Assembly (NCBI GenBank): GCA_012270065.1
Contig: JAAXJB010000082.1
Coordinates: forward strand, 103,349 to 136,587
Direction: 5' to 3'
DNA length: 33,239 bases
Source of the DNA: Rubripirellula sp.
Lineage (GTDB): Bacteria > Planctomycetota > Planctomycetia > Pirellulales > Pirellulaceae
Part shown: positions 5,343 through 10,629 of the stretch, one piece after another
Position numbering within the stretch: the first letter of the stretch is position 1
Layout of the letters: each line of letters begins with the position of its first letter
Program-made: the position numbers and the translations under genes
Notes under the pieces: generated by a model
What the model was told of the DNA's origin: nothing
The model's database searches: none
Seen by the model: only the letters and a program-made list of their open reading frames with translations

Positions 5343-6281
5343 TTATCGAGCTTCGTTGATAAGTTCCGCTGCACCTCGTTTCAGCAGAGCGTCTGCGGTA
5401 GTTTGCGCGAGCTGGATCGCGGCGTTCCAAACGCTTTCGGGCTCCTCCTGCCCGGTTTGCAGGTCGATTCTGTTTTTTTCATCGAGTCTTTTGCTTCCAT
5501 CCTGGGAAAGCACCGTGGCGGTAAGCTCAATGTTCCCTTCGTTGACCACAGCATGAGCCGCGATAGGCGCGAGGCACCCGCCGTGCAGAGAAGCGAGTAG
5601 TGATCTTTCGGCGGTAACAGCGGCTCTGGTGGGCAGGTGGTCCAGTTTGGCGACCACATCGAATGCGTCGCACCCCTGCCGGACTTCGATTCCCAAAGCT
5701 CCCTGACCTGGTGCAGGTAGCATTTCGCTGATCGGAAACTGGGTACGCGGAAGATCGGTCAGTTCCAGACGGAGGATTCCTGCCTCCGCGAGGAGTATTG
5801 CATCAAATTCACCGCTCTCGAGTTTTGCTAGACGCGTTTGCACGTTTCCGCGAATGGGTTCAACATTCAAGTCGTGCCGGTGTTGCTTTATCTGGGCGGC
5901 GCGGCGTTTGCTGCCAGTTCCGACACGGGCTTCTGCAGGAAGATCGTTCAGCTTGAACGCTTGAGGAGAAACAAGACTGTCGAGGACCGTTTCGCGTTCT
6001 GGGACCGCGGCCAATTGCAGGGACTCCGTTGGCTCAGTGGGGAGGTCTTTGAGGGAATGAACGGCAATATCGGCCTCATTGTCCAGAAGTGCCTGTTGAA
6101 TGCGTTTGGTAAAAAGTCCGACTTGGCGAGTGCCGTCGATCGGACGCATATCGGTGTCACCACCGCTCACCATCGGCACCAGAACCGTTTCGGCACCGCA
6201 GGTTTGGAGGCATTTTGCGACAAACTCAGCCTGCCAGAGGGCGAGCGGGCTCTTGCGGGTGGCGATCCTGAGAGGCGACAT
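5343..6281 (-). CDS. hemC: Hydroxymethylbilane synthase (porphobilinogen deaminase)
   Basis: HemC joins four porphobilinogens head to tail to make hydroxymethylbilane in the cytoplasmic tetrapyrrole (heme) pathway. I start it at ATG 6281 ([20 protein letters not shown]), which gives 312 residues, the usual length (E. coli has 313). The open frame runs 64 codons further upstream, but that stretch has no family similarity. Visible hallmarks are the N-terminal substrate/cofactor Arg motif ([10 protein letters not shown]), the catalytic Asp in HSLKDLP (residue 79), [10 protein letters not shown] (121-130), the RGNVQTRL motif (144-151), [11 protein letters not shown] (189-199) and the cofactor-carrying Cys in LHGGCLAPI (Cys236), to which the dipyrromethane primer is bound. 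No other hem gene is adjacent. It is divergent from the kinase-Hsp70 gene and may share its regulatory region. Confidence 0.97.
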
Positions 6282-6393
6282 GGGGCGATCTTTGGATTGG
6301 CAAACGGGGAAAATGGTTGATTTTTGCAGGATCGTGGCAGAATTTGACGTTTCGCTTGGGTTTGTGCGCAAGGACCGTTTTGGGCGCAACGGG

Positions 6394-6410
6394 GTGACGG
6401 CGACCGTCAC
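6394..6410. promoter_or_regulatory. Perfect 7-3-7 inverted repeat, candidate operator
   Basis: GTGACGG CGA CCGTCAC is a perfect inverted repeat in the divergent region between hemC (start 6281) and the kinase-Hsp70 gene (start 6551). It lies 71 nt upstream of the plus-strand TATAAT box. It has the form of a dimeric regulator's site; there is no T-tract, so a terminator role is unlikely. The regulator is unknown. Confidence 0.4.
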
Positions 6411-6481
6411 AAATGACGCATGGTTGTCGAAAATGGCAATTTCAACGCCAAATTGGCCCAAGTAAGAACCCAAGTCGGGCC

Positions 6482-6550: not shown

Positions 6551-9154
6551 GTGGAAGACTCGACCAATAACTTTCCTACCGCAGAGATTCCCACGCAGGA
6601 TATGCGTGGCATGCGTACTCGCGATATGCACGATGGTGAGGATAGTGGGGATTTTGACCTCGCTTCGGAACCCAAGGGCGATGGGGAGATTCCAAGTCAA
6701 ATAGGCGACTATGCCATCCGTGAACTGATCGGGTCGGGAGGCATGGGGCAGGTTTTCCTCGCCGAGCATACACGCATGCAGCGTCTGGTGGCCGTGAAGA
6801 TGCTGCCTGTCGACCGGATGAAGGATGAGGTCGCGGTATCGCGGTTTTACGATGAAGTCCGAGCGGCCTCCCGCTTGATGCATCCCAACATCGTGACGGC
6901 ATTCGATGCCGGTGAATTGGATGATGTTCACTATCTGGCGATGGAATACGTTGATGGGCAAACATTGACGAAGCTGGTTGCACAGAAAGGACCATTGCCC
7001 GTCAGTGAAGCCGCGGCTGTGATCCGACAGGCGGCGTTAGGGCTGTTGCATGCCCATCGGGCGGGGATCGTGCATCGTGACGTCAAACCCGGAAACGTGA
7101 TGAAGGGTGCTGATGGCACGGTGAAAATCCTCGACCTCGGTCTGGCACGGATCAACTCGGCATCGTTGTTGGATGAAGCGGATGCTGCCGTTAACCCGAA
7201 CGATCCTGAACGCAGACCAAAGGGCAGGTTGGTTGGGACGTTGCCGTTCATGGCCCCCGAGCAACTTGACAACCCGGATGTCGCAGACCCACGCAGTGAC
7301 ATCTATTCCCTGGGTGCCACCCTGTTTTTTCTGCTAACCGGTCGCTCACCGTTCACGGGGGATTATCTGGAACTTGTTTATGGACATCGACACGGGAAGA
7401 TACCCGACCTGATGGAAGCAAGAAACGATGTTGATCTCCAATTCGCCAATATCTTCATGCGAATGATGGCCAAGTCGCCGGATGAGCGATATGCGTCTTT
7501 CGACGAGGTCATCGATGATCTGAGTGACTATGTCAATCGTGAAGACACACCTGCATGGCTTGCGGAGTACTCGGGAGGGCAGGTTTCTGCCGAATCAGGT
7601 GGTTCGTCCATCGGAATGACTGGCACCAGTTCGAGTTCCAAAGTGTTTGCGATTGACCTCGGAATGTTCTTTGGAGCTGCTGCCGAAGCAACTTCCACGG
7701 GAACGGTCAGGTTGCTGACTGCCAACAAGGAAGAAAATGCATCGTTCCGCATGGCAGTAGCGAGTGAGGATGAGCAACTGTTCTTCGGTGCTCAGGCAAT
7801 GGAGCGACGTTTGGCAAGGACCCAGAACCTTGCCTACTGCGTTCCCATGTATATAGGAAAAGATCTCGTCGAACGGGAGATTGCCGGCAGGCAATGTCCT
7901 CCGGAAGTTCTGATGGCGATGATGTTCCGTGATCTTGTGGCAAATACCTGGAGAGACGAAGATCCACCAGCAGTGACCGCCATCACCATCCCCGCAAGTT
8001 ATGATCAATTGCACCGGCAGAGTATTTTGCAGGCGGCCGAAATGGCAGGCCTGAAGTCCGTCCGCCTTGTCCACCGCTCCATTGCCGCAGTTCAGGCAAC
8101 ACTCTTGGAAGATGAGTTCGAAGATCTGGACGAAAATGCTGCCAATGTTGAGGAAGAAATACAGGAACGCATTCTTTTTGTCAGTGTGACCGGCATGGGA
8201 AGTGAGGTTTCGACGTTCCGTGGGGAAGCGAACCGACTGCACCAACTCGCAATCTCGGGGCACTGGAACTCGGGTACCCTGCCGTGGTTGCAGAAGTTAG
8301 TCGAACTGGCCGTGACTGCCTTCAAGAAAGAACATAAGTTCGATCCGCGCAGTTCGCGAAGCACTGTTGCTCAGCTGCAAACCGCCTGCGAGAGGGCGAT
8401 GAATTCCATGACGTTGCTCGACAAGGTAGCGATCAGGTTGAAGGTCGGTGATGACGAGTTCAAAGTTTGGGTCGCCCGTAGACACTGGCTGCAATCCTGC
8501 GAAGACTTGGCGGCACAGCTCCGAAAAACAGTCAAGAGGGCGTGTCGTGACGCATCGCTTCCGTTAAGCGAGGTGGATCGCTGCGTGATCCTGGGGCCGA
8601 TTTTGAAAATACCCATGGTTCGCAACGCCGTCCTGCGGGGAATCAATCCCGATGTGACTTATTCAATGGTTGATCGCACTGACACGGCGCGAGGTGCTGC
8701 CGCATGTCTTGCTGCTGAATTGCCTGGCAGAGGCGCGTCGATTGCCATGCCAGCCCGCGGAGTTACCGGGCAGACCATTGGTATTGTGGTTGAAGATGTC
8801 AAGGGACGTCGACGCATCTTGCCGCTGATCCCCTTCGGTACTTCTCTGCCTGCCAGAACCAACCGGCGATTGACCGTTGGTTCCGAACGCGATTCCATGA
8901 CTCTTTCGCTTGTTGAATCCTCCGGATTGTCACGCAATGATTGGCAGACATTGGGAAGATCTGAAATCAAGATAGATGATGGTGTGAATCGTTCTCGGAT
9001 GATTGGTTTTGAGATTGACGTCAACGGTCTGTTGATTGTGCGAGCGCAAGCCGAGGGCGCGACTTCCAGTAATCGAATGCCGACGCTTCCTGAACCCAAA
9101 CTCACAGACGAACAAATTGCCGAGTGGACACGATGGCTTGATGCGGTACTGTGA
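6551..9154 (+). CDS. Ser/Thr protein kinase fused to a degenerate Hsp70-like domain
   Basis: This 867-residue protein joins two modules. Residues 53-330 form a PknB-type Ser/Thr kinase: glycine loop LIGSGGMGQVFLA (59-71), VAVK Lys83, HRDVKPGN (175-182), metal-binding DLG (195-197), APEQ (235-238) and SDIYSLG (249-255). All catalytic residues are present. After a Ser/Gly linker, residues 364 to about 835 follow the Hsp70 plan in order: FAIDLG (366-371), ITIPASYDQLHRQSILQAAE (479-497), a lobe II strand region (541-556), ILGPILKIPMV (680-690), and a beta-rich part like the Hsp70 peptide-binding domain (IPFGTSLPAR, then FEIDVNGLLIVRAQ). The helical lid is absent. Phosphate-binding residues are altered, so ATPase activity is doubtful. 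There is no membrane segment. The start is GTG 6551, with ATG 6602 as alternative. Likely a cytoplasmic sensor kinase; targets unknown. Confidence 0.9.
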   Translation: MEDSTNNFPTAEIPTQDMRGMRTRDMHDGEDSGDFDLASEPKGDGEIPSQIGDYAIRELIGSGGMGQVFLAEHTRMQRLVAVKMLPVDRMKDEVAVSRFYDEVRAASRLMHPNIVTAFDAGELDDVHYLAMEYVDGQTLTKLVAQKGPLPVSEAAAVIRQAALGLLHAHRAGIVHRDVKPGNVMKGADGTVKILDLGLARINSASLLDEADAAVNPNDPERRPKGRLVGTLPFMAPEQLDNPDVADPRSDIYSLGATLFFLLTGRSPFTGDYLELVYGHRHGKIPDLMEARNDVDLQFANIFMRMMAKSPDERYASFDEVIDDLSDYVNREDTPAWLAEYSGGQVSAESGGSSIGMTGTSSSSKVFAIDLGMFFGAAAEATSTGTVRLLTANKEENASFRMAVASEDEQLFFGAQAMERRLARTQNLAYCVPMYIGKDLVEREIAGRQCPPEVLMAMMFRDLVANTWRDEDPPAVTAITIPASYDQLHRQSILQAAEMAGLKSVRLVHRSIAAVQATLLEDEFEDLDENAANVEEEIQERILFVSVTGMGSEVSTFRGEANRLHQLAISGHWNSGTLPWLQKLVELAVTAFKKEHKFDPRSSRSTVAQLQTACERAMNSMTLLDKVAIRLKVGDDEFKVWVARRHWLQSCEDLAAQLRKTVKRACRDASLPLSEVDRCVILGPILKIPMVRNAVLRGINPDVTYSMVDRTDTARGAAACLAAELPGRGASIAMPARGVTGQTIGIVVEDVKGRRRILPLIPFGTSLPARTNRRLTVGSERDSMTLSLVESSGLSRNDWQTLGRSEIKIDDGVNRSRMIGFEIDVNGLLIVRAQAEGATSSNRMPTLPEPKLTDEQIAEWTRWLDAVL

Positions 9155-9453: not shown

Positions 9454-10629
9454 ATGCTCGATGGCCATACCGAAGCCATGAACGATTCGCAGCAAAATGA
9501 TCTGCTGTGTGAGGTATTGGCCGACGGAAGCATGATGCGTTGGAATCACGGCTGGTTCAAACTCGTCAGTTCGTGTTCTCCGACTGCATCTGTTCCGGTC
9601 GAAAAAATGATGGGCAGTGATTTCATGCAGTGGGTCCATGAGGAGGATCATTCGCATGTGAGTGAGGTGCTGGATCTATCTGATGCTGATGACCGACCAC
9701 GATCCATTCAGTTCCGTTTAGCCGGGGAAACCAGCGAAAGGGTTTTCATGGTTTGGTATCGCGTGTGTGACCCGCAGGGAAATGCTTCCATCATTGGCTT
9801 GGGGCATTCAGTGCCTTGTGATTTCACTCGAAATGCTGAACAGGAGGCATCTTCGCCAGTTTCAATTACATCCAGCGAGAATGTTGCGAAAGACGACAAT
9901 AAAAATGGTCAATACTTGCTAGACAGTGCAGAGTTGGCCTCTTTCGCGGGAAGGGCGAATCACGATTTGCGGGCGCCACTGCGTGCTATCAGTGGGTTGT
10001 CCCAGATTCTGGTCGAAGATCATAAGGACCAGCTTGATGAAAACGGCGTTGATTATCTTCAGAGAATTGCGGCGGCAGCAAAGCGAGTTGCAAACACCGT
10101 TGATGGCGTAACGGATTATCTCCGACTTGCCGGGTACGGTTGTAGTTTTCAAAACGTGGATTTGAATCAAAGCGTAGACGAAATCGTAGAATTTCATGGT
10201 AGCCATGAGGCTGGTTGGCGAGGGGAAGTGTTATCGGAGACGTTACCACTTGTTCATGGAGATCCCGCGCAACTTCGTACCTTGCTGCAAGAACTTGTCG
10301 GTAATGGTATCTGTCATAATGATGCCGCGAACCCGAGTGTTCGATTGGTCGTCGACCCGATTGGGTTGCGTGACGCGTTGCAATATTCCAGTTCTCGCGT
10401 CGTGATTGGTGTTGTTGATAACGGCGTTGGGGTTGATGAACAGTACCGCAACGATATTTTTTCTGCCTTCAGGAAACTCAGTCCCATCGGTGAGGAGAGT
10501 GGTCTGGGACTTGGCTTGGCCATTGCACTTAGAATTGTGAGGCGTCATGGCGGCGATCTTCGCTGTTACGGACACGAAGACGGAGGGAGCTGTTTTGTTT
10601 TTGATTTGCCGGTTGCTGTCAAAGAATGA
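9454..10629 (+). CDS. Soluble PAS-like sensor histidine kinase
   Basis: This is a 391-residue two-component histidine kinase with no transmembrane segment, so it should sense an intracellular signal. Residues about 22-125 look like a PAS-type fold (MGSDFMQWVHEEDHSHV is typical of PAS). The phospho-acceptor His170 lies in NHDLRAPLRAISGLSQIL, a HisKA box close to that of phytochrome-type kinases. The HATPase_c part has the N-box ELVGNG (Asn284), the G1 motif VDNGVGV (321-327, Asp322), an F-box (DIFSAFRKL) and G2 SGLGLGLAIALRIVRRHGG (349-367). The ATG at 9454 is preceded by a good AAGGAAG ribosome site; an ATG at 9478 is the alternative. No response regulator is encoded next to it, so its partner lies elsewhere. 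It follows the kinase-Hsp70 gene on the same strand after 299 nt. Confidence 0.93.
   Translation: MLDGHTEAMNDSQQNDLLCEVLADGSMMRWNHGWFKLVSSCSPTASVPVEKMMGSDFMQWVHEEDHSHVSEVLDLSDADDRPRSIQFRLAGETSERVFMVWYRVCDPQGNASIIGLGHSVPCDFTRNAEQEASSPVSITSSENVAKDDNKNGQYLLDSAELASFAGRANHDLRAPLRAISGLSQILVEDHKDQLDENGVDYLQRIAAAAKRVANTVDGVTDYLRLAGYGCSFQNVDLNQSVDEIVEFHGSHEAGWRGEVLSETLPLVHGDPAQLRTLLQELVGNGICHNDAANPSVRLVVDPIGLRDALQYSSSRVVIGVVDNGVGVDEQYRNDIFSAFRKLSPIGEESGLGLGLAIALRIVRRHGGDLRCYGHEDGGSCFVFDLPVAVKE

Follow-up and report, generated by a model that had tools for sequence, protein, structure and literature searches.

A serine/threonine kinase joined to an Hsp70-like domain has been recorded before among planctomycetes. 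In 2005 the combination "Kinase + HSP70" was listed for Pirellula sp., in a protein described as homologous to HSP70 proteins in its C-terminal domain (gi|32474490, Pirellula sp./Rhodopirellula baltica; PMC1262709); in its accessible text, that source goes no further than naming the combination and does not touch on loss of the ATPase, on distribution or structure, or on fusions of other types. Here we describe a gene of this kind in a 33,239-nucleotide stretch of DNA from Rubripirellula sp. (contig JAAXJB010000082.1, positions 103,349 to 136,587), referred to as the window. Its product has the architecture listed in 2005 for Pirellula-type bacteria, and gi|32474490, from the same bacterial group, is probably its orthologue because Rhodopirellula europaea 6C has one (L060). 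The architecture itself is not new; what this analysis adds is the conserved loss of the ATPase residues, together with sister fusions whose ATPase is intact and the finding that Hsp70s have been joined to kinases more than once. Proteins of the window type are not described in the accessible portions of PMC7159879, PMC8195603 and PMC4807772, and no account of ATPase loss in a kinase-fused Hsp70 was found in the literature searched, which consisted mostly of papers outside subscription. The first-pass annotation held that planctomycete kinases usually carry TPR, WD40 or PQQ repeats; a kinase survey, as far as its accessible text goes, stresses WD40 and TPR, which are common in the kinases of some groups, and neither Hsp70 nor DnaK occurs in its main text (PMC11032199).

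The kinase and the Hsp70-like module are encoded in one chain, as that annotation had recognized. A frameshift or the merging of two genes is ruled out by the reading frame in the window and by orthologues that carry the same fusion. Coding on the reverse strand was likewise rejected, as the exact antisense frame contains stops; other antisense frames are present in the list of open reading frames. Two orthologues, L065 (Rhodopirellula maiorica SM1) and one at G194:C38, have a broken frame within the Hsp70 half, which may reflect either assembly error or real loss.

The N-terminal kinase domain is complete, matching PF00069 over residues 54-315 (155.5 bits against a cut-off of 31.7) and PknB in the PDB at E 5e-47, which bears out the earlier assignment of a PknB-type kinase to residues 53-330. 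After exclusion of duplicates and of kinase parts shorter than 240 residues, 41 distinct members could be compared, and each of the 11 kinase residues tested is kept in all of them, with the catalytic Lys, the alpha-C Glu, the HRD Asp, the Asn, the DFG Asp (in a motif that reads DLG in the window) and the APE Glu invariant. Judged from these residues, the kinase half is apparently catalytically competent. Its kinase domain is like that of the PASTA kinases PknB and StkP, but the match to NCBIfam NF033483 over residues 54-332 (272 bits) falls below the cut-off of 450, and Pfam found no PASTA domains in the protein.

The remainder of the chain is an Hsp70 by descent. In a structure-model comparison, the DnaK/Hsp70 fold and domain order were matched across 478 residues, with an actin-fold domain followed by a beta-sandwich domain that is complete in the predicted structure. 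The kinase-Hsp70 order, actin fold and beta-rich, peptide-binding-like part proposed from the first reading were all recovered in this way, the suggested structure prediction and fold search having returned an Hsp70-like fold.

What sets this module apart is the state of its ATPase. Forty-five distinct Hsp70 halves of the window type, the window included, were placed in an alignment with the DnaK encoded by the window genome, after removal of duplicates, of Hsp70 parts shorter than 430 residues, and of L112, whose motifs are half decayed and whose branch in the Hsp70 tree is very long; residue numbers are taken to follow E. coli DnaK. T11 has become Met in 40 of the 45, K70 is replaced in 44 (by Pro in 32), and E171 is changed to Arg in 41 and to Lys in 3. 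D194 and G342 are each lost in 44, and T199 is retained in just one. In the window protein the residues at Lys70, Glu171, Asp194 and Thr199 are Pro, Arg, Ser and Gly, respectively, a set that does not correspond to a functional Hsp70 ATPase. L032, which branches apart, retains Lys, Glu and Asp at positions 70, 171 and 194. The hydrophobic VLLLD-type interdomain linker is also replaced in nearly all members, with Pro at 390 in 39; in the window, I-P-A-R-G occupies the aligned places. Finally, the alpha-helical lid is absent from the window protein, which stops after one 14-residue helix (853-866). The Hsp70 half thus appears, from its residues, to be a pseudo-Hsp70 that has lost hydrolysis, and presumably also binding, of ATP of the Hsp70 kind.

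Both halves of the protein are under purifying selection in one close pair: for L010/L012, dN/dS is 0.017 in the kinase, 0.026 in the nucleotide-binding-like domain and 0.025 in the beta domain. This was the one unsaturated pair, dS being saturated in most of the other nine.

The best explanation, which we hold to be somewhat probable, is that the gene encodes a PknB-type kinase equipped with a nucleotide-independent, lidless pseudo-Hsp70 that acts as a docking or regulatory arm. The protein would be a soluble, catalytically competent kinase, and its C-terminal pseudo-Hsp70 would retain the two-domain body while dispensing with Hsp70-type ATP binding and hydrolysis. In the predicted structure the two domains of the Hsp70 half are docked, as they are in working Hsp70s when ATP is bound. 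This agrees with a module fixed in a single state, and the half would keep the docked arrangement without nucleotide. Such a module could serve as a constant protein-binding and regulatory arm, either bringing substrates or partners to the kinase or holding the kinase in check until a partner binds. Two observations weigh against this reading. Residual nucleotide binding may still occur, because D8 (42 of 45), G10 (45 of 45) and G197 (44 of 45) persist in the ATPase-dead type, and crystal structures of BiP labelled as ADP-bound or apo match the model about as well, which weakens the case for a fixed docked state.

The first-pass annotation had proposed that the chaperone module senses unfolded proteins or recruits clients for phosphorylation. 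The ATPase residues, linker, lid and pocket do not support an ordinary ATP-driven chaperone, while a client-binding or sensing role is compatible with what was found. In its sensor form, the proposal would be that exposed hydrophobic peptides are bound directly by the beta domain, with no ATP cycle involved, and that this binding turns the kinase on. Consistent with this, the predicted structure contains a whole beta domain, the C-terminal part is somewhat better conserved than the nucleotide-binding-like part (mean identity 0.62 for residues 746-867 versus 0.55; 24 sequences), and pocket positions 401, 436, 438, 474 and 476 stay mostly non-polar. However, the pocket is altered, with Arg in place of I472 in 31 of the 45 members and Leu in place of F426 in 39, and the lid, canonical linker and ATP switch by which clients would be trapped are all missing, so that we regard a peptide sensor as possible but unlikely. 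DnaK, DnaJ, GrpE and the Ser/Thr kinase RB12942 are induced by heat shock in R. baltica, according to the accessible text of PMC2754498, a result that is neutral here since RB12942, or another of the listed genes, may or may not be the fusion.

Slightly more doubtful is the idea that the Hsp70 half is an autoinhibition or assembly module, in which homo- or hetero-oligomers formed with itself, DnaK or a J-protein set kinase activity by dimerization and the peptide pocket is irrelevant. PknB-type kinases are activated by dimerization, and the C-terminal tryptophans W859 and W862, for which we know of no catalytic reason, are invariant in all 23 aligned members. On the other hand, J-domains need the Hsp70 interdomain linker, which is replaced here. 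That the Hsp70 half is merely a drifting, functionless relic is very improbable, for although its catalytic residues are lost, dN/dS is about 0.025 in both of its sub-domains in the close pair, the replacement residues are themselves conserved (as with the Arg at 171), and the general type is kept across many genera.

The first-pass annotation could not say how widespread this architecture is. Among 60 relatives (its own genome included), 25 gave a match at E <= 1e-100: 20 of 22 genomes of the genus, 5 of 15 from other genera of the family, and none of 23 from other families of the order, although ATPase-intact fusions, among them those of G028, G033 and G035, escape a cut-off this strict. By hand tally, at least 129 of 241 family genomes have a match that spans the kinase and enters the Hsp70 half (starting at or before position 180 and ending at or after 568, with the best three or fewer candidates per genome scored); G028, G099, G114, G255 and G261 carry fusions outside this tally. 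Once 13 of the 129 are set apart as ATPase-intact or unclear, including G112 and the ambiguous G242, 116 genomes in 16 genera remain by hand count, assigned to the window's general type rather than residue by residue. The named relatives belong to Rhodopirellula, Rubripirellula, Roseimaritima, Laterigemmans and Aporhodopirellula, and most are labelled Pirellulaceae. Beyond the family, 392 genomes of the phylum yielded spanning matches among the best two or three candidates per genome solely in family members (with profile A5, G262 at E <= 1e-150; with profile A4, G000, G249 and G262 at E <= 1e-120). Likewise, in 296 genomes of the order at E <= 1e-230, spanning matches occurred solely in the family members G033, G262, G263 and G114, the remaining listed matches covering the Hsp70 part alone. 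Within the limits of these scans of the best two or three candidates, which weaker or rarer fusions could escape, the architecture is widespread in one family and the kinase-then-Hsp70 order was not seen outside it.

The same family also contains kinase-Hsp70 fusions with the same domain order and an intact ATPase (L093-L099, L102-L107); L164 and L165, where DLGTT can be read at the visible start, are further candidates. T11, K70, E171, D194, T199 and G342 are all kept in 12 of these sisters, and also in a second fusion and a short stand-alone Hsp70 of the window genome. By PF00012, that genome has four Hsp70 genes, two of them kinase-fused. In L100 and L101, two tandem kinase domains precede a degenerate Hsp70 half (Pfam on L100). 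A first kinase tree placed the ATPase-dead and ATPase-intact fusions together (88/93), a group that was broken when closer kinases were added; L112, with its half-decayed motifs, counted as ATPase-intact in these kinase trees and in the Hsp70 tree. Constraining the two types to group together, with L112 and L094 left out, was not rejected (p-AU 0.384 in the Hsp70 tree and 0.228 in the kinase tree), and the data are compatible with either one or two fusion events. In the Hsp70 tree, 11 of 26 stand-alone Hsp70 rows share one group with 11 ATPase-intact fusions. Stand-alone Hsp70s (L037:1217-2818, L109-L131) occur commonly among the relatives that were read, and many of them lie in frames of about 500-575 residues; L037, the one that was aligned, is without the canonical linker.

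The second fusion of the window genome (L035:3694-7881; G000:C17:69693-73880, minus strand) encodes 1395 residues, comprising a kinase, a double zinc ribbon, a long middle region and a DnaK-type Hsp70 with intact ATPase motifs and a shortened C-terminus. Its Hsp70 pairs with DnaK of the same genome (99/73, within a 100/100 group), and its kinase groups in the kinase trees with the C106 kinases (100/100). Locus L038 (G000:C106) holds two adjacent large kinases that presumably contain a stretch rich in cysteine and, at the C-terminus, a part resembling formylglycine-generating enzyme. A reversed fusion of 997 residues, with a full DnaK first and the kinase last, is encoded in G041 (L169:547-3540), a genome from a different family within the order. 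Overall, at least three separate joinings of kinase and Hsp70 are counted.

The divergent neighbour of the fusion gene (Table 1) is hemC, an arrangement shared by 13 of the 20 orthologous loci whose upstream sequence is 1.2 kb or longer. The downstream histidine kinase (9454-10629) was considered as a partner and set aside: of the 27 orthologous loci, some of which end before it, tblastn matched it in 3 (L039, L042, L050), and its conservation is not supported.

Table 1. Coordinates in the window of the fusion gene, its parts and its divergent neighbour.
Feature	Position	Strand	Remarks
Kinase/pseudo-Hsp70 fusion gene	6551..9154	+	867 aa, GTG start; orthologues found
N-terminal tail, residues 1-52	6551..6706	+	residues 1-44 pLDDT <50
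PknB-type Ser/Thr kinase domain, residues 53-330	6707..7540	+	all tested catalytic residues present
Interdomain linker, residues 331-363	7541..7639	+	residues 339-361 pLDDT <50
Actin/Hsp70-fold nucleotide-binding-like domain, residues 364-740	7640..8770	+	catalytic residues lost
Degenerate phosphate-1 loop DLGMF, residues 369-373 (vs DLGTT)	7655..7669	+	
Pro432 replacing catalytic Lys70 of DnaK	7844..7846	+	position by hand count from alignment
Arg509 replacing catalytic Glu171 of DnaK	8075..8077	+	
Degenerate phosphate-2 motif SVTGMGSE, residues 545-552 (vs DLGGGTFD)	8183..8206	+	
Beta-sandwich substrate-binding-like domain, residues 741-840	8771..9070	+	
Single C-terminal helix, residues 853-866	9107..9148	+	no lid after
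hemC (porphobilinogen deaminase), divergent neighbour	5343..6473	-	

To our knowledge, Hsp70 pseudo-enzymes that keep the full body and lack both ATPase and lid have been little studied. Fusion to an active-looking kinase offers a simple system in which to ask what the Hsp70 body does without its ATP cycle, and the ATPase-intact sisters in the same family allow direct comparison. Should the module sense or dock clients, it would link protein folding state directly to phosphorylation signalling in bacteria, and the shape of a chaperone may control a signalling enzyme.

Compared with DnaK and other Hsp70s of PF00012, the Hsp70 half of the window protein is fused to a kinase, has replaced ATPase residues and linker, and is without a lid. 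The ATPase-intact sisters share its order, a similar length, the PknB-type kinase and an Hsp70 without a full lid, but keep DLGTT, Lys70, Glu171, DLGGGTFD and the GG motif, and where complete have additional N-terminal sequence ahead of the kinase. In eukaryotes, kinase activity is tied to an Hsp70 in PERK and IRE1 with BiP and in HRI with Hsc70; there, however, the Hsp70 is a separate protein with an active ATPase, whereas in the window protein it is covalently attached and looks ATPase-dead. As a tentative suggestion, Planctomycetes may repeatedly have wired Hsp70s into Ser/Thr kinases (kinase with lidless Hsp70; kinase, zinc ribbon, helical region and DnaK; and the reversed DnaK-kinase), the most widespread branch losing its ATPase and turning into a pseudo-chaperone devoted to sensing or docking. 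This would be the covalent counterpart of the logic by which an Hsp70 controls a kinase in eukaryotic stress signalling.
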